Shown here piece by piece: positions 28,591-40,217 of a stretch of DNA of 64,000 nucleotides (the first letter of the stretch is position 1; every line of letters starts with the position of its first letter). The stretch is from Lachnospiraceae bacterium. GTDB lineage: Bacteria > Bacillota > Clostridia > Lachnospirales > Lachnospiraceae. A program made the position numbers and the translations under genes. A model generated the notes under the pieces. The model made no database searches. It was not told the origin of the DNA and saw only the letters and a program-made list of their open reading frames with translations. The stretch is taken from contig JAEFAR010000002.1 in NCBI GenBank assembly GCA_016287675.1, forward strand, positions 62,001-126,000, given 5' to 3'.

Positions 28591-28603
28591 AGGAGGTGCC
28601 AGT

Positions 28604-28912
28604 ATGTACGCTATTATTGCAACAGGCGGAAAGCAGTACAAGGTAGCAGAAGGCGATATCATTAATGTAGAAAAGCTCGGCGTTGAAGCAGGAGCAAATT
28701 ACACATTCGATCAGGTTCTCGCAGTTAACGACGGATCGATGAAGATCGGTAATCCCACTGTTTCCGGTGCTACCGTAACAGCATCCATCGTTGGTGATGT
28801 TAAGGGTAACAAGGTTATTGTTTACAAGTATAAGAGAAAATCCGGCTATCACAAGAAGAACGGCCACAGACAGAATTATACCCGTATCAAGATTGAAAAG
28901 ATCAACGCTTAA
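28604..28912 (+). CDS. rplU: 50S ribosomal protein L21
   Basis: 102 residues, normal length, beginning [14 protein letters not shown]. The C-terminal [17 protein letters not shown] is the L21 signature that contacts 23S rRNA. The start at 28604 is fixed by AGGAGGTG and by the known L21 N-terminus; an in-frame ATG at 28523 lies inside the leader RNA. First gene of rplU-prp-rpmA. Confidence 0.98.
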
Positions 28913-28917
28913 TCGCC

Positions 28918-29235
28918 ATGATTAAAGTAACATCGATCCATAACGAAAAAGACGAGGTTTGCGGCTTTCGTGTGGAAGGCCACGCGGGATATGCAAAGAA
29001 AGGGCAGGACATTATCTGTTCAGCTGTTTCGGTCCTGGCGACCAATACGGTGAATTCCGTAGAGGCTCTCACCAATGACAAATTTTCCTGTAAGCAGACC
29101 GAGGACGGTTTCCTCGAACTGATCCTTGTTGAAGATGTATCCAAAGAAAGCAGATTGCTTCTGGATTCGTTTTTCCTTGGGATCGAGGCGATCGTACAGG
29201 AGTACGGAAATAAGTTCGTAAACTTACTAAAATAG
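28918..29235 (+). CDS. prp: Ribosomal-processing cysteine protease Prp
   Basis: 105 residues. Catalytic His22 (GHAGYA) and Cys34 (DIICSAVS) are intact. Prp removes the N-terminal extension of L27 in Firmicutes, and the L27 encoded next carries that extension. Located between rplU and rpmA, the conserved position. Confidence 0.95.
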   Translation: MIKVTSIHNEKDEVCGFRVEGHAGYAKKGQDIICSAVSVLATNTVNSVEALTNDKFSCKQTEDGFLELILVEDVSKESRLLLDSFFLGIEAIVQEYGNKFVNLLK

Positions 29236-29247
29236 GAGGTAAGCACA

Positions 29248-29535
29248 ATGTTAAAGATGAACCTTCAATTGTTTGCTCACAAAAAGGGCGTTGGTTCTAC
29301 TAAGAACGGCAGAGACTCCGAGTCCAAGAGACTTGGTGCTAAGCGTGCCGACGGTCAGTTCGTATTGGCCGGAAACATCCTTTACAGACAGCGTGGAACA
29401 AAGATTCATCCCGGCGTTAATGTTGGACGTGGCGGCGATGACACCTTATTCGCACTTAAGGATGGCGTTTTGAGATTCGAGAGATTGGGAAGAGATAAGA
29501 AGCAGGCTTCTGTTTATCCCGTTGAATCCAAGTAG
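29248..29535 (+). CDS. rpmA: 50S ribosomal protein L27 with Prp-cleaved extension
   Basis: 95 residues. The N-terminal MLKMNLQLF precedes [15 protein letters not shown]; Prp is expected to cut after the Phe to expose the Ala-His N-terminus that reaches the peptidyl-transferase centre. AGGAGGT lies 7 bases before the ATG. A terminator-like hairpin follows. Confidence 0.98.
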
Positions 29536-29545
29536 AGATGATTTA

Positions 29546-29586
29546 TTAAGCCCCGAGGGATAATGCTTCGGGGCTTAAATTTTCTG
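29546..29586 (+). terminator. Terminator-like hairpin between rpmA and obgE
   Basis: Eleven-base-pair stem around GCCCCGA (29546-29556 with 29568-29578), 11-base loop, short imperfect T-tract. Probably reduces rather than abolishes read-through, as no clear promoter was found before obgE. Confidence 0.7.
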
Positions 29587-29591
29587 TTTGA

Positions 29592-30908
<1,317 letters not shown>

Positions 30909-30923
30909 TGAGCAGGAGATAAT

Positions 30924-31223
30924 ATGATCACAACAAAACAGAGAGCGTATTTAAGAGGTTTAGGCCAAAAACTGGATCCGATCTTCCAGATCGGCAAGAA
31001 CAGCCTGACTCCCGAATTTACCGAAGCTATAATCGAAAATCTTGAAAAGAACGAGCTCATTAAGATCTCCGTTCTCAAAAACTGCGATGATGAGCCCAAG
31101 GAGCTTGCGGGCATTCTTGCAGACAGAACTCATTCCGAGGTGGTTTCGGTCACCGGCAGAAAGATCGTTATCTACAAACAGGCTAAAGAGAAGGAAAAGA
31201 GAAAAATAGAACTTCCGAGGTAG
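30924..31223 (+). CDS. yhbY: YhbY-type CRM-domain RNA-binding protein
   Basis: 99 residues, a single CRS1/YhbY (CRM) domain. LRGLGQKLDPIFQIGKNSLT carries the conserved GxxG-type loop region, and TGRKIVIYK is the C-terminal signature. The family associates with pre-50S particles. Three bases separate it from nadD-yqeK. Confidence 0.93.
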   Translation: MITTKQRAYLRGLGQKLDPIFQIGKNSLTPEFTEAIIENLEKNELIKISVLKNCDDEPKELAGILADRTHSEVVSVTGRKIVIYKQAKEKEKRKIELPR

Positions 31224-31226
31224 GAT

Positions 31227-32465
31227 ATGAGAACAGGTATCTTGGGAGGTACATTTAATCCCATACACAATGCTCACCTTTCTCTCGGAAAGGCGGCAAA
31301 AGAACAATTCGGCCTTGACAAACTGGTGTTTATGCCTGCTGCAAGACCTGCCTACAAGGATCCGAGACAGCTGGTTTCCTTTGAAGACAGAATGGAAATG
31401 ACCAAACTTGCGGTTTCGGAAGTACTGGGCGGAGAAAAAAACGGGTATTTTATATCCGACCTTGAATTCAAACGCCCCGGAAACACCTACACCTGTGACA
31501 CTTTAGCTTATCTTACGGAAACAGAGCCCGATACCGAATTCTTTTTCATAATAGGCGGAGATTCCCTTATGTGGATCGACGAATGGAAGGATCCGGCAAA
31601 CATCGTAAACAAGTGTACATTGCTCGTTGCTGAGCGCGGAGATACGAGCCTTAAGATACTTAAAGAAAAGGCAGAAGGCCTGAAAAAAACAATTAACGCA
31701 AAGATAGAGTTCATTGATTATCCCTGCAATTTTGTTTCTTCATCAGGCATACGCAGAAAGATCAAGGCAGGCAATGCCAAGCCTTCCGATCTGCCAATGT
31801 CTGTCATCGATTACATCGATAAAAAGGAACTCTACGGATGCTGCAAGGACGGAAGCTACTTTACGTCGGATCAGATCACTTCCTTTACGAAGGACATGGA
31901 AAACACTTTGAGTCCCTTCAGGTTTCAGCATTCATTGGGTGTGGCCTACACATCGGCAGCTCTTGCCATGGTTTACGGCGTTGCGGTGGACAAAGCCACA
32001 GCAGCGGGGCTTCTGCACGACAGTGCCAAGGAGATTCCTCATGATGAGCAGGAGAAGCTTTGCGATGAAATGGGCATATGCCTTACGGACACGGAACGTC
32101 GCTTAAAGCAGCTGATACACGGAAAGCTTGCCGCAGGACTTTTACAAAGAAAATACGGCATTAAGGACGAAGATTTTCTTAATTCCATAAGAAATCATGT
32201 TGTAGGACGGCCTGCCATGACCAGACTTGAACAGATCGTATTCTGTGCGGATTTTCTCGAACCTCAGAGAGATTTCGTAATGGATCCGCCTTTAAAAGAT
32301 GTAAGGTCATTGGTGTTCAGGGACATAGACAAGGCAACTGCCATGATACTTAAGGCCACGATGGATTTCCTTAAGGAAAAAGGCAGGGAGATCGATACAT
32401 CAATGATGACCACCTTTGATTATTACAAAGTTTTCCTTGATAACGAAGAAACGGTTAATCCTTGA
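31227..32465 (+). CDS. NadD-YqeK fusion: nicotinate-nucleotide adenylyltransferase plus HD phosphohydrolase
   Basis: 412 residues made of two enzymes usually encoded by adjacent genes. Residues 1-200 are NadD (GGTFNPIHNAHL nucleotide-binding motif, SSSGIRRKI adenylyl-transfer motif), which makes deamido-NAD. Residues about 210-400 are YqeK (HSLGVAYTS, LLHDSAKE, IRNHVVGRPAMT), an HD enzyme that symmetrically cleaves Ap4A. No stop codon or start site lies between them. Seated in the ribosome-assembly block before rsfS, the usual place for nadD and yqeK. Confidence 0.93.
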   Translation: MRTGILGGTFNPIHNAHLSLGKAAKEQFGLDKLVFMPAARPAYKDPRQLVSFEDRMEMTKLAVSEVLGGEKNGYFISDLEFKRPGNTYTCDTLAYLTETEPDTEFFFIIGGDSLMWIDEWKDPANIVNKCTLLVAERGDTSLKILKEKAEGLKKTINAKIEFIDYPCNFVSSSGIRRKIKAGNAKPSDLPMSVIDYIDKKELYGCCKDGSYFTSDQITSFTKDMENTLSPFRFQHSLGVAYTSAALAMVYGVAVDKATAAGLLHDSAKEIPHDEQEKLCDEMGICLTDTERRLKQLIHGKLAAGLLQRKYGIKDEDFLNSIRNHVVGRPAMTRLEQIVFCADFLEPQRDFVMDPPLKDVRSLVFRDIDKATAMILKATMDFLKEKGREIDTSMMTTFDYYKVFLDNEETVNP

Positions 32466-32492
32466 ATTTTCATCAGAAACGGAGAAAAGCAA

Positions 32493-32837
32493 ATGACAGA
32501 TAAAGACCGTGAAATTTTGAACGGATTATACAAAGCACTTGATGACAAAAAGGCTGAGGCCATAAAGATCATTGATATCGGTAACATTTCCGTTATGACG
32601 GATTACTTTGTCATCACAAACGGAAACAATCAGCCTCAGGTTGATGCACTGGTGGATGCGGCTGAAGAAGCTTTGCTTGAGGCCGGCGTAAAGGATGTAA
32701 AGATCGAAGGCGGAAGAAACAACGGATGGACTTTGATCGACGCCGGAAACATCATCATCCACATTTTTACAAAAGAAAACAGAGATTTTTACGACCTGGA
32801 ACGCATATGGTCAGACGGTAAGATCGTAGAATTATAA
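32493..32837 (+). CDS. rsfS: Ribosome silencing factor RsfS
   Basis: 114 residues, normal length. DYFVITNGNNQPQVDALVDAAEE and GWTLIDAGNIIIHIF match the RsfS/Iojap fold. It binds L14 and blocks subunit joining when nutrients are short. Follows nadD-yqeK by 27 bases with a GGAGAA ribosome-binding site. Confidence 0.95.
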   Translation: MTDKDREILNGLYKALDDKKAEAIKIIDIGNISVMTDYFVITNGNNQPQVDALVDAAEEALLEAGVKDVKIEGGRNNGWTLIDAGNIIIHIFTKENRDFYDLERIWSDGKIVEL

Positions 32838-33055: not shown

Positions 33056-33100
33056 ACCGCTCATTGGCGCTTGACAAAGCGTTAAAAGAGCGGTATTATT
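33056..33100 (+). terminator. Terminator hairpin overlapping the recombinase promoter
   Basis: Outer arms ACCGCTC/GAGCGGT (33056-33062 with 33088-33094) enclose an inner stem GCGCTT/AAGCGT (33067-33072 with 33077-33082). A T-rich tail follows. The -35 of the next promoter lies in the inner stem and loop. Confidence 0.7.
33071..33099 (+). promoter_or_regulatory. Promoter of the XerS-like recombinase gene
   Basis: Consensus TTGACA (33071-33076), 17-base spacer, TATTAT (33094-33099). The elements sit inside the preceding terminator hairpin. The predicted transcript starts a few bases before the dif-like dyad. Confidence 0.75.
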
Positions 33101-33112
33101 TTCATAGATATT

Positions 33113-33140
33113 ATTTCGCCAAACGCGAGTTTAACGAAAT
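33113..33140. other. 28-bp dif-like imperfect dyad (candidate Xer recombination site)
   Basis: Two 11-base arms, ATTTCGCCAAA (33113-33123) and TTTAACGAAAT (33130-33140), are inverted repeats with 9 of 11 matches around a 6-base centre CGCGAG. The 11-6-11 layout equals that of dif sites, and symmetry extends two bases outward on each side. It is 35 bases upstream of a XerS-like recombinase, the position difSL has relative to xerS in streptococci. The arms do not match the classical XerC/XerD half-sites. It could instead be an operator or a 5'-UTR hairpin. Confidence 0.5.
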
Positions 33141-33175
33141 AAGTATATCAAAAAGAACGGTTTTAAGAGGTATAT

Positions 33176-34231
33176 ATGAAAGAAATCAATTACCACGAAA
33201 AACAAAATATGAAAAACATCAACAAACTGCGGGAACTTGAAGCTGTTTTACCTGCCTTCGTAAAAACTTTTTTCCGTGGCATTGAACAGATAACCCAGCC
33301 CAGAACAAGGATCGCTTACGCTGAGGATTTAAAAGTTTTCTTTGATTACATCAAAGAATCAAATCCTGAGTTCAAAGGAAAAGCTTTAAATGAAATGAAG
33401 GATCCTTCCGTTCTGGAAAGATTTACCGCCGAAGACATTGAGGAGTATCTGGATTATCTTAAACTATACGAAAATCCCGAAGGAAAAACCTTTACAAATT
33501 CTGAAGCCGGAATAAAAAGAAAAATCTCTTCTTTGAGAGCCATGTACAATTATTATCATACCCACAAGGTGATCAACGAAAATCCCACATTACAGGTCAG
33601 AGTGCCCAGGATCCACGAGAAAAACATCATCAGAATGGATCCGGATGAGGTGGTTGAGTTCCTTGATACGGTTGAAAACGGGAAAAATCTGTCCAAACAA
33701 TCCATGGCATTTCACGAAAAAAACAAGGTCAGAGATCTTGCCCTTACTACCCTTTTACTTGGCACCGGTATCCGTGTTTCGGAGCTTGTGGGGCTGGATC
33801 TTAAAGATCTTGACATGGAAAACGATCGTATAAACATCATCCGAAAAGGCGGAAACGAATCATTTGTTTATTTTGGTGATGAAGTACACGCTGCGCTTAA
33901 AGACTATCTTGAAGAAAGAAAAAAGATCATTCCGGAATCAGGCAGCGAAAATGCTTTGTTTTTATCATCAAGAAGGCAAAGAATGTGCGTGAGGAATGTG
34001 GAGTTCATGGTTAAAAAATACGCCAAACTCTCCGTTTCTTCCAAAAAGATCACTCCCCACAAATTAAGAAGTACTTACGGTACACAGCTTTACACGGAAA
34101 CCGGAGACATTTATCTTGTGGCTGAAGTTCTGGGCCATAAGGATGTCAACACCACAAAACGTCATTATGCGGCCATCGATGAAGAAAGACGCCGTTCCGC
34201 AAAAGATGCGGTGAAATTACGTGAGAAATAA
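33176..34231 (+). CDS. XerS-like tyrosine recombinase
   Basis: 351 residues. N-terminal SAM-like core-binding domain (about 25-150) and a C-terminal catalytic domain with all six residues: Arg200 (GTGIRVSEL), Lys224 (IRKGGN), His295 and Arg298 (TPHKLRST), His321 (LGHKDV) and nucleophile Tyr331. Length and segments such as FHEKNKVRDLALTTLLLGTGIRVSE resemble streptococcal XerS, the single-recombinase chromosome-dimer resolvase, more than XerC or XerD (about 300 residues). Ribosome-binding site AAGAGG. No phage or transposon genes flank it. An integrase of a lost element cannot be excluded. Confidence 0.8.
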   Translation: MKEINYHEKQNMKNINKLRELEAVLPAFVKTFFRGIEQITQPRTRIAYAEDLKVFFDYIKESNPEFKGKALNEMKDPSVLERFTAEDIEEYLDYLKLYENPEGKTFTNSEAGIKRKISSLRAMYNYYHTHKVINENPTLQVRVPRIHEKNIIRMDPDEVVEFLDTVENGKNLSKQSMAFHEKNKVRDLALTTLLLGTGIRVSELVGLDLKDLDMENDRINIIRKGGNESFVYFGDEVHAALKDYLEERKKIIPESGSENALFLSSRRQRMCVRNVEFMVKKYAKLSVSSKKITPHKLRSTYGTQLYTETGDIYLVAEVLGHKDVNTTKRHYAAIDEERRRSAKDAVKLREK

Positions 34232-34267: not shown

Positions 34268-34645
34268 TTATAATTTAAATCTTTTCTGTTCGCCCAGAAC
34301 ACTTTCAAGTTCTACGATCTCTGCGGGAGTAAGATCAACGTGTCTCAGATACTCATTAAAGAAATTGCTGATCTCGCCGCCGAAAACCTTATTCAGTAAA
34401 GCACGGGTTTCGATCTCCTGAACCTTTTCCTTTGTTATCAAAGCTCTGCAAATGAATCCGGGATCTTCTCGACTGACTGCCCCTTTGTCTATCAAGCGAT
34501 TGATTACCGTGTAGGTTGTATTTTTTTCCCAACCGATGTAATTTTTAATGATGTTAGAAATATCTTTGGCTGCTATTTCGTCGTTTGCCCAAAGCAGCTC
34601 CATTACATTTAATTCACCCTCATGTAAACGTATTTCCTCACCCAT
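34268..34645 (-). CDS. BlaI/MecI/CopY-family transcriptional repressor
   Basis: 125 residues. Winged-helix DNA-binding domain (about 5-75, HEGELNVMELLWAND and TTYTVINRLIDKGAV) followed by a dimerisation tail, as in BlaI. The usual partner, a BlaR1/MecR1 sensor protease, is absent nearby, and no beta-lactamase gene is adjacent. The start overlaps the stop of a short leader ORF (TAATG). A small dyad CTAC-N4-GTAG at 34674-34685 could be an operator. Target genes unknown. Confidence 0.88.
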   Translation of the reverse strand: MGEEIRLHEGELNVMELLWANDEIAAKDISNIIKNYIGWEKNTTYTVINRLIDKGAVSREDPGFICRALITKEKVQEIETRALLNKVFGGEISNFFNEYLRHVDLTPAEIVELESVLGEQKRFKL

Positions 34646-34710
34646 TAATATAAAACCATCCTTCCGAGTGTATCTACTGCGGTAGTGCTTTTATAAAAAG
34701 CGTTCTTCAT
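34645..34710 (-). CDS. 21-residue leader ORF upstream of the BlaI-like gene
   Basis: Starts at ATG 34710 after a strong AAGAGGAGAG and ends with TAA at 34647-34645, sharing its last base with the ATG of the repressor gene. It begins MKNAFYKSTTAVD. The overlap suggests translational coupling. Too short to assign a function; it could be a leader peptide or simply a coupling cistron. Confidence 0.55.
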   Translation of the reverse strand: MKNAFYKSTTAVDTLGRMVLY

Positions 34711-34738
34711 AACTCTCCTCTTAAAAACCGCAAGCATA

Positions 34739-34768
34739 ATTCTACCACCATAGAAATTGTTTTGTCAA
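34739..34768 (-). promoter_or_regulatory. Promoter of the leader ORF and BlaI-like gene
   Basis: Minus strand: consensus TTGACA (34768-34763), 18-base spacer, TAGAAT (34744-34739). It lies just past the stop of the ATPase gene, so the repressor has its own transcript. Confidence 0.75.
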
Positions 34769-34771
34769 GGT

Positions 34772-35995
34772 TTAAACAAGGACTTTCAAAAGTTTTTCGA
34801 TATAAAAAACAGAATAAACGGGGATCGTCACCGAATTGCCTTCATCTACAAAATTAGAATCAGATATTTTAAGGGCTTTCGGGTTCCCGAATTTGTTTTG
34901 ATAGGACAAGATACTTTTGGAAACCTTCCTGTTTTCTCCGTGATAATCCACAGGTATGTCAGAGTCTATCACAAAAGGCAGTTCAGCCCTGTTCCCCGAC
35001 TCCCAGAACTTAACTTCTATGCCTTTTTGGACAAAGGTCTGCAACAGGTAGTTTTCTTCCCGAAGGAGAAATTCTACATCTGTAATTTCATCAAAGTTTT
35101 CCGTAGTATTAAAGGAAAATTCGGGATAAAACAGCTTGAATTTCCGTTCGTCGGACCGTTCATTTATCCTTAAACATAAGCTTCTGTCAGTCAGAGTGTC
35201 CAGCGCTCCCGAATACATCTGATAGGTAACACCGTTTCTTATCTGGTTGAACATGAATTTCTTGTTGGATTTTTTAAGCTGAGCATCCAAAGTGTCCAGG
35301 ATCTGAACACATTTGTTCCTGAGTGAAAGATCCCCGATCCCCGATACAGAGCTGTAGACCGGCAGTTTCGCATCCATCTGCCTTGAACGGATGTTCAGAC
35401 GGTCTTCTTTTATGTAATCCTTAACAACTTCAGGCATACCGCCTGTCCACATGTACTCTTCAAATGTGGAGATCAGGTTGTTGTGGACGATGTCCGGAAG
35501 CTTTTCTTTTCTTTTTAAAGTTTCGCTTATGGAACTCACGTACCAGTCATTGTAACCCAGATTGGTCAGGAATTCGTCAAACTGAAGGGGAAACATCTGA
35601 AGCTTAAAGACATCTGTTTCAGCGGTATTCTTAAGGTAATCATGATCGGAAATAAAGATCCATTTGTATCTTCCGGACAGAGCTTTTTTCATTAATTCCA
35701 TAAAAAAAGCCTCATTCTTTTCCGTTTCATTAAGTATCAGAAACTCCGAAGCCAGGACATCAGTGCTTAGTCCGAAGTGTTCCGCCACATGCTCTAAAGG
35801 ATCCGGTATCTCAGAACTTAAAGAAAGCTCCGGCTCATAATAGAGAAAGCTTTCACGAAAGTTTTTCGCGTATTCCCTGCATATAAATGCTTTACCCACT
35901 CCCTTAAGACCGTAAAGGAACAATGGGCCTGCCTGTTCTTCGTCCCAGTTCTTAATGCTTTCGATTATATTTCTTTTTAGAATGATCTTTTCCAT
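34772..35995 (-). CDS. AAA-type ATPase with DUF4143-like C-terminus, apparently degenerate
   Basis: 407 residues. Layout matches the AAA_14/DUF4143 family: N-terminal P-loop domain (about 1-180), a winged-helix-like middle and a C-terminal nuclease-like fold (FWESGNRAELPFVI, about 315-328). Key motifs are altered: Walker A reads GLKGVGKAF with Ala where Ser/Thr is expected, the Walker B region reads WIFISDHD, and the nuclease-like Glu-x-Asp is Glu-Leu-Pro. It may have lost ATPase activity. Nine bases downstream of rluD, probably co-transcribed. Function unknown. Confidence 0.75.
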   Translation of the reverse strand: MEKIILKRNIIESIKNWDEEQAGPLFLYGLKGVGKAFICREYAKNFRESFLYYEPELSLSSEIPDPLEHVAEHFGLSTDVLASEFLILNETEKNEAFFMELMKKALSGRYKWIFISDHDYLKNTAETDVFKLQMFPLQFDEFLTNLGYNDWYVSSISETLKRKEKLPDIVHNNLISTFEEYMWTGGMPEVVKDYIKEDRLNIRSRQMDAKLPVYSSVSGIGDLSLRNKCVQILDTLDAQLKKSNKKFMFNQIRNGVTYQMYSGALDTLTDRSLCLRINERSDERKFKLFYPEFSFNTTENFDEITDVEFLLREENYLLQTFVQKGIEVKFWESGNRAELPFVIDSDIPVDYHGENRKVSKSILSYQNKFGNPKALKISDSNFVDEGNSVTIPVYSVFYIEKLLKVLV

Positions 35996-36004
35996 AACAA
36001 TCCT

Positions 36005-36922
36005 TTAAACAGAAAGCTTTTTAAGAAGTGCAACAAAATAATCCGGTAAGGGAGCTTCAAATTCCACATACTCATGAGATGTGGGATGGATAAAACCTAT
36101 GGTCTTTGCATGAAGGCATTGTCCCTGAAGCTTAAATCTCTTTTCTTCCGGCCCGTAGACTTCATCTCCCAGAAGCGGATGATGAAGAGATGCCATATGC
36201 ACGCGGATCTGATGAGTTCTTCCGGTTTCAAGCCTGCATTCTATGTGGGAGTATTTACCGCCGAGATTTGCAATGACTTTGTAATTTGTGACGGCATTTT
36301 TGCCGGTCTTGTAATTGATTGCCATTTTTTTACGGTCTACGGGATCACGGCCTATGGGGGCTTCGACTCTCCCACTTTCTTCCTTAAAACAGCCGTTTGT
36401 TATGGCCTCATACACTCGGGTGATCGAATGAACCTTAAGCTGCTCGGAAAGGCTCTGATGAGCGACGTCGTTCTTGCAGACCACCAAAGTTCCGGTAGTG
36501 TCTTTGTCGATACGGTGAACTATGCCCGGACGCATAATGCCGTTGATGCCGGAAAGAGAATCTCCGCAATGATAAAGAAGGGCGTTTACCAAAGTACCGG
36601 AGTAATGCCCTGCAGCGGGATGAACCACCATATCCTTTGGCTTGTTCACAATGATGATGTCATTATCTTCATAGATTATGTCCAGAGGGATGTTTTCAGG
36701 CTTAATATCAGGCTTTTGACTTTCCGGGAAAGTTATTTCAACAACATCCCCTTCTGCTGCCTTGTAGCTGGCTTTTACCTGTTTACCTGACACCAAAACA
36801 AAACCGCCATCAATTAATCGTTGAATAGCGGTTCTGGACATTTCATCGGTCTGTGAAGCGATCAGCTTGTCGATCCTGAGATCAGCTGTCTCTTCGTCAA
36901 TTGTCAGTATCAGTTTCTCCAT
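36005..36922 (-). CDS. rluD: RluD-type 23S rRNA pseudouridine synthase
   Basis: 305 residues. N-terminal S4 domain (about 14-75) and the RluA catalytic domain with HRIDKDTTG (catalytic Asp) and GRTHQIRVHMA. In Firmicutes the homologue next to lspA is RluD/YlyB. The reading frame overlaps the end of lspA by 26 bases, so translation is coupled. Confidence 0.92.
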   Translation of the reverse strand: MEKLILTIDEETADLRIDKLIASQTDEMSRTAIQRLIDGGFVLVSGKQVKASYKAAEGDVVEITFPESQKPDIKPENIPLDIIYEDNDIIIVNKPKDMVVHPAAGHYSGTLVNALLYHCGDSLSGINGIMRPGIVHRIDKDTTGTLVVCKNDVAHQSLSEQLKVHSITRVYEAITNGCFKEESGRVEAPIGRDPVDRKKMAINYKTGKNAVTNYKVIANLGGKYSHIECRLETGRTHQIRVHMASLHHPLLGDEVYGPEEKRFKLQGQCLHAKTIGFIHPTSHEYVEFEAPLPDYFVALLKKLSV

Positions 36923-37448
36923 TTTCCTTTATCTCATTTTTCTTCTTAAAAGAAAAAAATGAAAAATTGTCTTCCTTATATTTGGTTAGGATCAATACTA
37001 TGGTCAGTACGGCTGCAATGGTGATACAGCAATCCGCAAAATTAAAGATGGGGAAATTAATGATCTCAACATAGATGAAATCGGTCACGTAACCAAATAC
37101 GATCCTGTCTATGGTGTTTCCTACGGCTCCCGCGATCATGAACACATCGATCCAGAGCAAAGGAAGATACTTGTTTTCCTTGGGAAGCTTTAAGTAAACG
37201 TAGGTCAATACCGCAAACAACAAAAGCGATACGATGAGAAGGAAATTGATCCTTCCCTGCAGGATCCCCCACACAGATCCTCTGTTTTCAAGATAATGAA
37301 AGCAAAGCACCTTTTTGATCAGATAGACACTTCTGCCGTTTGCAAGATGTTCTCTTGCAAGGATCTTTGTCACCTGATCGATCACCAGAAGAACAACAAA
37401 AACGATAGCCTGAAATAAATAGTTTAACTTAGTGAATTTCTTTTCCAT
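36897..37448 (-). CDS. lspA: Lipoprotein signal peptidase (signal peptidase II)
   Basis: 183 residues with four membrane segments. The catalytic aspartates are present in GNTIDRIVFGYVTDFI. It removes signal peptides from diacylated prolipoproteins at the membrane. The C-terminal cytoplasmic tail is Lys/Glu-rich and overlaps rluD. divIVA ends 1 base upstream of it. Confidence 0.95.
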   Translation of the reverse strand: MEKKFTKLNYLFQAIVFVVLLVIDQVTKILAREHLANGRSVYLIKKVLCFHYLENRGSVWGILQGRINFLLIVSLLLFAVLTYVYLKLPKENKYLPLLWIDVFMIAGAVGNTIDRIVFGYVTDFIYVEIINFPIFNFADCCITIAAVLTIVLILTKYKEDNFSFFSFKKKNEIKENGETDTDN

Positions 37449-37449
37449 T

Positions 37450-38040
37450 TTACTTGTCTGTCTCGCCGCCTATAAACTCGATGTCTTCATCGGCCTTTTT
37501 ATCCTTTTTGGCAGCATTGGCATTTCTTTCTTCTTTTTTATCGTAGAATCTCTTGGGAACCGCGATCCCGTCCGCATTCAAAAGGCTTGCGGAAATGTTG
37601 AAGCTTTCGGAATTGATGAGTTCGATCTGAGCATTTGCAAGGTTCTTGAAATTGATCTTGTAGGTCTCAAAGGTCTGATTCATGTTGATGATCTGCTGAT
37701 TGATCTTTTCAAGCTCACGACGTGCATCGCTTAAAATGATCTGAGACTTGGTTACCGCATCATTTTCTATCTGTCTTGCGTTCTCGATGGCATTTGCCTT
37801 GGTCTCTTCCGCTGTCTTTTCGGCAAGGATCAAAGCCTTCTGCATGGTCTTTTCAATGGCCCTGTAATGATTTAAAGCTTCCTCGAGTTCGCTGACCTTG
37901 TCTTCAAGCTCGACCTTATCCCTGTAAACTTCCTCGTAACTGTCGACCACATCTTCCAAAAATGAATCGACATCCTTTTTATCATAGCCTAATCCTAAGG
38001 CTTTAAATGCCTTATTTTGGATCTCTACCGGTGTAAGCAT
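37450..38040 (-). CDS. divIVA: DivIVA-domain septum/pole protein
   Basis: 196 residues. The N-terminal membrane-curvature domain (LTPVEIQNKAF...GYDKKDVDSFL, about 2-35) is followed by coiled coil (about 40-150) and a charged tail. DivIVA marks curved membranes at septa and poles. Between sepF and lspA, the standard Firmicutes order. Confidence 0.93.
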   Translation of the reverse strand: MLTPVEIQNKAFKALGLGYDKKDVDSFLEDVVDSYEEVYRDKVELEDKVSELEEALNHYRAIEKTMQKALILAEKTAEETKANAIENARQIENDAVTKSQIILSDARRELEKINQQIINMNQTFETYKINFKNLANAQIELINSESFNISASLLNADGIAVPKRFYDKKEERNANAAKKDKKADEDIEFIGGETDK

Positions 38041-38059
38041 TATTTAGTCCTCCAAAGCT

Positions 38060-38746
38060 TCAGTATTTCGAAAAAGTGGGAAAATCGTTGCCTGCAGATG
38101 TGATCTGGGCAAGAATGTCTCCTTCGATGTCCGTGTCTCCCGGTGCAGCAATAAAATTGTAACCGGAAATCTGATAGATCTGACCGTTGACAGCGTAAAC
38201 AGCTCCGCCGGCAAAATCCATCAGTCTTTGTGCGAGTTCGTACTTAACACCTTCAAAATTCATGAAAATAACGCCGCCCGCTTTAATGGTGTCACAGACT
38301 TCCCTTGCATCCTCAAAGGATTTGGGATTCAAAACGTAGATCCGTCTGTCGGAAAGGGATGATCTTAAGGGAACCGCAGTCTTGGTCTGGGGCTGAGACG
38401 CAGTTCTCTGAGTCTGAAATGTCCTTTGTGCTCCGGGCTGACTTTGTCCGAAATGATAACCTCCCGCAGGCTGGGAAGGACGGGCCGAAACTCCGGCAGA
38501 TGACCCGGTATTGAATGTCCTTCTTTGTGCCAGAGGTTCATCATCCTCTTCTTCTTCGACTTCCTCTTCTTCAGGATCGGCATTATTCTGTTCTTCGTAT
38601 TTTCTTAAGGGCGGATTTTCTCTTTTGGGCACAACTTCACGTTTACGGTTGTTGTCCATAACTATATCAAAATCCTCGTCCTCGTATTCATCATCTTCAT
38701 CAGTAAGCTTTAACGAATCCAAAAGGCTTCGAATCAATCTTCCCAT
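38060..38746 (-). CDS. sepF: Cell division protein SepF
   Basis: 228 residues, longer than typical (about 150) because of an acidic and Gln/Pro/Arg-rich linker (about 20-125). The C-terminal SepF fold (about 130-215) has RRIYVLNPKSFEDAREVCD and VIFMNFEGV. The N-terminus MGRLIRSLLDSLKL is an amphipathic membrane anchor. SepF tethers FtsZ to the membrane. First gene of sepF-divIVA-lspA-rluD. Confidence 0.93.
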   Translation of the reverse strand: MGRLIRSLLDSLKLTDEDDEYEDEDFDIVMDNNRKREVVPKRENPPLRKYEEQNNADPEEEEVEEEEDDEPLAQRRTFNTGSSAGVSARPSQPAGGYHFGQSQPGAQRTFQTQRTASQPQTKTAVPLRSSLSDRRIYVLNPKSFEDAREVCDTIKAGGVIFMNFEGVKYELAQRLMDFAGGAVYAVNGQIYQISGYNFIAAPGDTDIEGDILAQITSAGNDFPTFSKY

Positions 38747-38796
38747 AAAGAGTTCTCCTCTGTCTTCATAATCTTTTGGTGCCCATACACTGCTAT

Positions 38797-38825
38797 ATTA
38801 TCCGAGATTTTAATCTCACTGTCAA
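38797..38825 (-). promoter_or_regulatory. Promoter of the sepF operon with a dyad in the spacer
   Basis: Minus strand: consensus TTGACA (38825-38820), 17-base spacer, GATAAT (38802-38797). The spacer holds a dyad GAGATT-AA-AATCTC (38817-38804) that could be a repressor or activator site. Confidence 0.75.
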
Positions 38826-38831
38826 TACTTT

Positions 38832-40217
38832 TTAATAGATGACAGCTCCTTCAACCACGTTACCCGCATTAAGGGCAATGTGGTCATAGGCTGCAAGTCC
38901 GGATACAGTGTTTTTCTTAGCAAGCACGTATTCATTTCCCGTCTCGAGACGCTCGACCCTTTTAAAGACTGCATATCCGTTGTTAATGTTGTAAGCTCCT
39001 TCCAGCTTTACAATGAAAAGATAAAGCATGGAACTCTCGGATCTGTCAGGCTTTGAAATGTATTCGCCGGATGAGATCAGATCCGTACTCACATAATTGT
39101 ATCCCTGATCTGTCCAGAAGATCTTTGTTTCAAAAAACCCGTAATTCTTTTCACCCGATCTTTCATCGGTTCTTTCTATCATAAGTCCTGTCTTTACGGT
39201 TCCGTCCTCGTTCTTATAGGTCATAAAATAGGAAGACGGTATCCTGTAGTAATCCTTGTAAGCAAGAGCCGAAACAGGAATCTTAAGGCCTGTATTTTCT
39301 TCGGTATCAAAGGAGATCTTTACAAACCTTTCACCGATGTAATTTGCCACATAATGATTCATGGAGATCACGGCATAATAAACATTACCCGCTTTCATGA
39401 AACTGACCGGCGCAGTAAGGTTTTGGGAGGAATCGATGGTAAAGCTCACCCTGGTCTTACCCTGTAATTTGGAGTACATCTCATCGCTGAGCTTTACGAT
39501 GATATTCCATTCATCGGAAGTGATCAGCTTGTAGACCGCACTTCCGGCTTCAAACATGTCGGTCTTATAAGTGTATTCCGAGGCATATTTATCCTCAAAC
39601 ATGGAATTATTGAAATTGGTAGTGTTTACATTTGAATAATTGTCAATGTGGTAGGAAATGATCCCGGATCTTTCGGAATCCACAATGCTGAAGCCTGCAT
39701 TTAAGCCTGTTCCCGCAATGATCTCGTTTAGCTTTATCATTACCTTGTTGTCCATGGTTCTACGGTAATACTGAAGGATCTCGTCGTGAACCACCGAATA
39801 GTCTTTAAAGTCGGAGGCTTTGGAGTAGGTCTCGTTAATGTAGTCCTTAAGCTCTGCAGTTTCTTCGGCGGAAAGCTTTATCCCTGTCTTTTCGGAATTC
39901 AGTCTCTCGTAAACTGTCTTGTCCGTTCCCACGGAATAGACGCTTTCATTCTTGCAGATCTTATCGCCTTCTTTAAAGTAGTAATTAATGTAGCCTGAGG
40001 ATGGTGTCCTGTAGACGCTTTCCTCTCTCACTATCAGCCCTTTAAAGCTATCCTTTGTGTATAATCTGCCGGGCGGGACCTCGTAAATCGAAATCTCGGT
40101 CTTGCTCAAAGGAACGTAGACATTGATCACCAGATAAACAAGGACAAATAAAAAAATAACAACCCCAATGTTAATTTCCCTGCGTTGTTTGATTTTCGTC
40201 GTTTTTTGCCTTGCCAA
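38832..40217 (-). CDS. HlyD-like membrane-anchored protein of unknown function
   Basis: 461 residues. One N-terminal membrane helix (about 16-36), then an extracytoplasmic region with a lipoyl/biotinyl-like barrel segment (GLIVREESVYRTPSSGYINYY) and a C-terminal beta region (ISFDTEENTGLKIPVSALAYK). This resembles HlyD/MacA adaptor proteins, but no transporter is adjacent. Homologues in clostridia lie beside sepF. Start is TTG at 40217 with AGGTAG upstream. A role in envelope or division is inferred from context only. Confidence 0.7.
   Translation of the reverse strand: MARQKTTKIKQRREINIGVVIFLFVLVYLVINVYVPLSKTEISIYEVPPGRLYTKDSFKGLIVREESVYRTPSSGYINYYFKEGDKICKNESVYSVGTDKTVYERLNSEKTGIKLSAEETAELKDYINETYSKASDFKDYSVVHDEILQYYRRTMDNKVMIKLNEIIAGTGLNAGFSIVDSERSGIISYHIDNYSNVNTTNFNNSMFEDKYASEYTYKTDMFEAGSAVYKLITSDEWNIIVKLSDEMYSKLQGKTRVSFTIDSSQNLTAPVSFMKAGNVYYAVISMNHYVANYIGERFVKISFDTEENTGLKIPVSALAYKDYYRIPSSYFMTYKNEDGTVKTGLMIERTDERSGEKNYGFFETKIFWTDQGYNYVSTDLISSGEYISKPDRSESSMLYLFIVKLEGAYNINNGYAVFKRVERLETGNEYVLAKKNTVSGLAAYDHIALNAGNVVEGAVIY

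Follow-up and report, generated by a model that had tools for sequence, protein, structure and literature searches.

We found that a Lachnospiraceae chromosome carries, at its replication terminus, a single Xer-type recombinase gene (hereafter xer) next to a dif-like site, and that the two very probably make up a one-recombinase Xer/dif module for the resolution of chromosome dimers. Both lie in a 64,000-nucleotide stretch of contig JAEFAR010000002.1 (assembly GCA_016287675.1), called here the window, whose coordinates we use unless another contig is named. A one-enzyme dimer-resolution system had been proposed in an earlier note on this DNA. This reading is supported by the occurrence of only one PF00589 (Phage_integrase) gene, by the conservation of the site and by the position of both at the terminus. 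The features of the region are as follows:

28598-32837, + strand: left flank, rplU, a small ORF, rpmA, obgE, yhbY, nadD-yqeK and rsfS, heading toward the site
33071-33099, + strand: predicted sigma-70 promoter of xer (TTGACA-17-TATTAT, 11 of 12 positions; consensus match only)
33111-33142, + strand: dif-like recombination site (arms 33111-33123 and 33130-33142; centre 33124-33129, CGCGAG; 28-bp core 33113-33140)
33176-34231, + strand: single Xer-type tyrosine recombinase, XerS-like, 351 aa, the only PF00589 match in the genome
34239-34261, no strand: hairpin resembling a bidirectional terminator, between xer and the gene that converges on it (consensus match only)
34268-40217, - strand: right flank, BlaI/MecI-like regulator, 407-aa ATPase-like ORF, rluD-like pseudouridine synthase, lspA, divIVA-like, sepF and HlyD-like genes, heading toward the site

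The names of the flanking genes are those that we take to apply, from their sequence and general knowledge.

The module would work in a few steps. Recombination between sister chromosomes would produce a dimer, whose two copies of the 32-bp site would be brought to the division septum. FtsK would pump DNA toward the terminus, thereby aligning the two copies, and would activate Xer at the septum. Four copies of the single Xer protein, two per site, would bind both arms, and strands would be cut and exchanged over the 6-bp centre to restore two monomers. The genome encodes an FtsK with the gamma domain (PF09397, E 3.1e-27), and we infer that the Xer protein binds the arms, exchanges strands and depends on FtsK.

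A recombinase related to XerS

The open reading frame of xer starts with ATG and is intact. The earlier note had described a 351-residue tyrosine recombinase with a complete R-K-H-R-H-Y set, and this description holds: R200, K224, H295, R298, H321 and Y331 are invariant in an alignment of 30 orthologues. The best NCBIfam model is that of XerS (NF003462), matched over its full length with 204.8 bits, which is below the curated equivalog cut-off of 267. XerC (170 bits), XerA (156.9 bits) and XerD (153.7 bits) score lower, and the cut-offs for XerC (335) and XerD (329.6) are both missed. All 30 aligned orthologues match these same models, that of XerS with a best E of 9.1e-66. Similarity to the solved XerH structure is confined to the catalytic domain (residues 178-342, E 1.6e-11).

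In a tree rooted on XerC/XerD only, and built from sequences other than XerH and chromosomal streptococcal XerS, a branch with 100/100 support joins the clade of the window protein and the XerS of Bacilli plasmids, apart from XerC/XerD. The clade is a separate sister of these plasmid proteins, with long branches flagged, and the nearest kin of the window protein are L065 and L064. Because its score is under the XerS cut-off, the protein is best regarded, from its sequence, as XerS-like, belonging to a sister group and not to XerS proper. The likeness to streptococcal XerS put forward in the earlier note thus stands for the nearest model, but not for membership of the family.

A conserved dif-like site

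The 28-bp dyad reported earlier, ATTTCGCCAAA-CGCGAG-TTTAACGAAAT, was confirmed at 33113-33140 with its 11-6-11 layout and 9 of 11 complementary arm positions. It extends to a 13-6-13 form, TTATTTCGCCAAA-CGCGAG-TTTAACGAAATAA, in which 11 of 13 arm positions match, and lies 33-35 bp from the start codon of xer. The full site pattern occurs once in the window, where none is expected, and once in the whole 2.66-Mb genome, the assembly of which is 95% complete.

With a threshold of E 1e-20, 56 of 61 relatives had an orthologue of xer, most with 48-62% identity and a few with distant matches only. Class-wide, 66 of 291 genomes had a match at E 1e-40, and in about 45 of these it is a clear orthologue. 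One member of the same GTDB genus (G005) has no detected orthologue and carries a different gene after rsfS, which could reflect loss, replacement or an assembly gap; two other genomes (G004 and G006), at about 80% completeness, are uninformative.

The site follows the gene. Its 32 bp are identical in four species of the genus, while their leaders have diverged in the 3' part. In a scan drawing on 80 named Lachnospirales loci and allowing up to 2 mismatches, a related site was present upstream of the orthologue at 39 of 74 loci within 1 kb and at 45 of 63 within 3 kb (18 of the 63 had none in this range). Downstream, the corresponding counts were 2 of 77 and 4 of 75, and shuffled sequence gave 0-1. 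Conservation of the dyad upstream of orthologues, which the earlier note had put forward as a check, is therefore borne out. In a separate mismatch-tolerant scan of relatives, controls gave about as many hits as matches at 1 mismatch, and only 0-mismatch sites near xer were usable.

Across 53 sites, the inner AAA and TTT and one G never change, while the 6-bp centre drifts. The common form in the family is ACTATTCGYRAAA-N6-TTTAACGAATAGT, with a variant in Blautia, Dorea and Mediterraneibacter (TCTATACGACAAA-N6-TTTTTCMAAWAGA). The outer arm of the window site, TTATTTCG, is partly common to L065, L064 and L142. The arms were initially taken to be a new sequence. They do differ from those of known sites, but are a local variant of the family-wide one, and the system is consequently far wider than one genome.

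Position at the replication terminus

The cumulative GC skew of the 185,663-bp contig peaks at contig position 96,010 (34,010 in the window), and the dyad lies about 0.9 kb away. The mean skew goes from +0.070 before the switch to -0.070 after it, and long ORFs from 58 forward and 10 reverse to 6 forward and 47 reverse. Since GC skew and coding strand both switch there, the module marks the replication terminus. The association extends to seven other genomes with the orthologue at the skew switch. The complete chromosome of a member of another family (G057) has the site at 2,281,643 and the skew maximum at 2,281,484, 159 bp apart. In six more genomes, four of them single-contig, xer is always at the switch, and in five the site is 61-338 bp upstream of xer and 0.03-2.6 kb from the skew maximum; in the sixth (G127) no site was recognised upstream of xer. 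The window site thus has the traits by which dif sites are known: one copy per chromosome, an intergenic location, palindromic arms, a centre of 6-8 bp and a place at the GC-skew switch.

Two candidate guide words for FtsK were set aside, GAAGAG (206 toward the site and 38 away on contig C12) and the Lactococcus word GAAGAAG (104 toward and 31 away). They are not used as evidence because genes point one way on either side of the site and every purine-rich word is polarised accordingly.

Filamentous phages at the site

Zot is the assembly ATPase of filamentous phages. We found the family site in 51 viral contigs of IMG/VR and window-type arms in 17, where reversed-pattern controls gave 0 and 0. 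Several site-bearing contigs carry Zot, and three contain phage-like genes, the site and a host xer together. The contigs with a Lachnospiraceae dif-like site include L203, L211, L215, L218, L220, L224, L232 and L233. In two others, L256 and L264, the arms are of the window type (ATTTCG) and are accompanied by Zot-like genes and by a tyrosine recombinase that shares about 29% identity with that of the window; L264 contains a pair of sites separated by about 5.8 kb.

The most informative case is contig 1 of Lachnoclostridium sp. An14 (L124/L276), where sites at 127702 and 135311, 7.6 kb apart and just upstream of xer, enclose a filamentous prophage with Zot and a Viral_Rep gene. Among the proteins examined between the two sites there was no integrase. 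The outer of the two sites matches that of an Enterocloster bolteae MAG without a difference over 35 bp. An inovirus lodged between two copies of the site is a natural experiment that supports recombination at the site. This inovirus seems to borrow the host Xer, which would perform the reaction. Inoviruses of Enterocloster, also Lachnospiraceae, were previously reported as filamentous prophages that carry pI/Zot, measure 6.5-8.5 kb and lie between direct repeats, with dif and Xer unnamed (PMC10061712); the An14 prophage is of the same kind, but its flanks are the xer-linked site. If true, this explains where integrase-less gut inoviruses insert. We found no description of a single-recombinase Xer system hosting inovirus integration in the open-access literature.

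A record labelled 'Bacteriophage sp.' (MT835478.1, L162), with a 56% identical xer, was considered as a phage-borne copy and rejected because it also carries sepF, lspA and rluD, which are of host type. It is probably bacterial or contains host DNA.

Operator or recombination site

The dyad might be a mere operator through which xer represses itself, chromosome dimers being dealt with otherwise. The arrangement in this genus lends itself to such a role: the dyad starts 12 bp past a good predicted promoter, whose -10 region is unchanged in four species, and would fall within the leader of the xer mRNA. A bound recombinase may therefore repress its own gene in this genus. Yet this cannot be general, because in many relatives 0.8-6 kb separate the site from xer, in some cases with an intervening gene. 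Nor would an operator be expected to mark the skew switch, to be carried by phages and to flank an inovirus. We thus regard an exclusively regulatory dyad as very unlikely, although autorepression could be an added role of the recombination site.

One recombinase or two

Less likely still is a conventional XerC/XerD system with one partner absent from the draft assembly. The 95% completeness of the assembly leaves room for a second Xer in the remainder, and about 24 of the 61 relatives have an additional XerD-type gene (17 above cut-off), which implies that the XerS-like system is not the sole Xer everywhere. However, a search of this genome with the XerD model returned only xer, none of the four genus members carrying the orthologue has a XerD above cut-off, and XerC above cut-off was found in none of the 61 relatives. 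In six relatives the xer orthologue is the only match to the XerC and XerD models. The separation of the gene family from XerC/XerD has full support in the tree rooted on them. Finally, a scan with what we take to be the Bacillus dif consensus found no such site in ten genomes, including those with XerD-type genes. The earlier note had held that separate xerC and xerD genes with a canonical dif elsewhere would speak against a one-enzyme system; the genome shows neither the pair nor a Bacillus-type dif. In relatives such as G031, G034, G042, G052 and G056, a lone XerD-type gene accompanies the XerS-like one, and XerC is not found above cut-off.

A stable gene between converging operons

Tyrosine recombinases are commonly integrases of mobile elements, and distant relatives of the window protein (about 30-35% identity) occur on some plasmids and phage-like contigs. 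The gene might accordingly be an integrase and the dyad its attachment site. We consider this extremely improbable, because xer is near-universal in the order, occurs in single copy and keeps its place at the terminus, flanked by the same housekeeping operons, and because no mobile-element genes adjoin it in the window. Mobility between strains, raised in the earlier note, is contradicted by this pattern, which is that of a vertically inherited Lachnospirales gene. The two operons conserved in relatives are rplU-rpmA-obgE-yhbY-nadD-yqeK-rsfS and rluD-lspA-sepF. In the named loci their genes converge on xer in 316 of 316 placements, which are not independent, given the operon structure of these genes and the kinship of the species. 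The orientation of xer relative to these operons varies (L064-L143), with the gene facing either the rsfS side or the rluD-lspA side, and both operons always converge. The module seems to have been flipped many times at a fixed terminus.

The dyad by itself is weak evidence, barely over chance: the window has 31 dyads of 11-6-11 layout in which 9 or more positions match, where Markov controls give 5-17, and about 5% of random intergenic stretches of equal length would contain one. The site stands above chance by the uniqueness of its full pattern in window and genome, together with its conservation and position. A chance dyad next to an unrelated recombinase, which the 31 dyads of equal quality might suggest, is refuted by the conservation of sequence and place and by the single copy, and can be practically dismissed.

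Comparison with known Xer systems

The dif surveys considered here deal with XerC/XerD systems, with XerS in lactic bacteria and with XerH in epsilon-proteobacteria, and that of Kono et al. 2011 was confined to holders of XerCD (PMC3025954). In the open-access literature, subscription papers being outside our scope, we found no single-Xer/dif system in Lachnospiraceae or Clostridia.

The closest parallel is XerS/difSL of Streptococcus and Lactococcus, which also has one recombinase of about 350 aa, the site beside the gene and the module at the GC-skew switch, and whose XerS gives the best full-length NCBIfam match. In contrast, the window protein scores under the XerS cut-off and falls in a separate clade. 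The sites differ as well: difSL is 31 bp long, with uneven arms around an 11-bp centre (PMC5357621), whereas the window site has 32 bp, near-symmetrical 13-bp arms with other letters, and a 6-bp centre. For these reasons, we file the module as one that works like XerS/difSL yet forms a separate clostridial branch.

XerH/difH of Helicobacter and Campylobacter (PMC2731167, PMC5357621) shares with it one recombinase of similar length, a 6-bp centre and a site that is often gene-linked and close to the terminus, but the protein similarity is weak and restricted to the catalytic domain, and the difH arms (TGAAAAC/TTTTCAAA) differ from those of the window. XerC/XerD with classical dif has the 11-6-11 layout, terminus position and catalytic residues in common, and differs by using two proteins instead of one and another arm sequence. 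The archaeal XerA/dif also combines one recombinase with a 28-bp 11-6-11 site; the window protein, however, is below the XerA cut-off of 220 bits and belongs to a bacterium with FtsK-gamma.

It is reasonably likely, if less firmly grounded than the function of the module itself, that in Lachnospirales and some neighbouring clostridial groups a distinct clade of one-enzyme Xer replaces XerC/XerD, with its own symmetrical dif, an order-wide fixed neighbourhood at the terminus and filamentous phages that integrate by borrowing the enzyme. Until now, one-enzyme unlinking has been known chiefly in streptococci and in bacteria of the Helicobacter type; Lachnospiraceae rank among the most common bacteria of the human gut. 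A readable site provides a precise marker of the terminus in draft genomes, and the module is a simple system to study the successive action of one enzyme on two half-sites.

Second XerS-like genes are found near the terminus in two genomes (G009:C2:103222-104235 and G059:C23:126044-127039). The copy in G059 is accompanied by a dif-like site of its own at 127126, about 0.1 kb from the gene, and is closest in the tree to a Paenibacillus plasmid recombinase.
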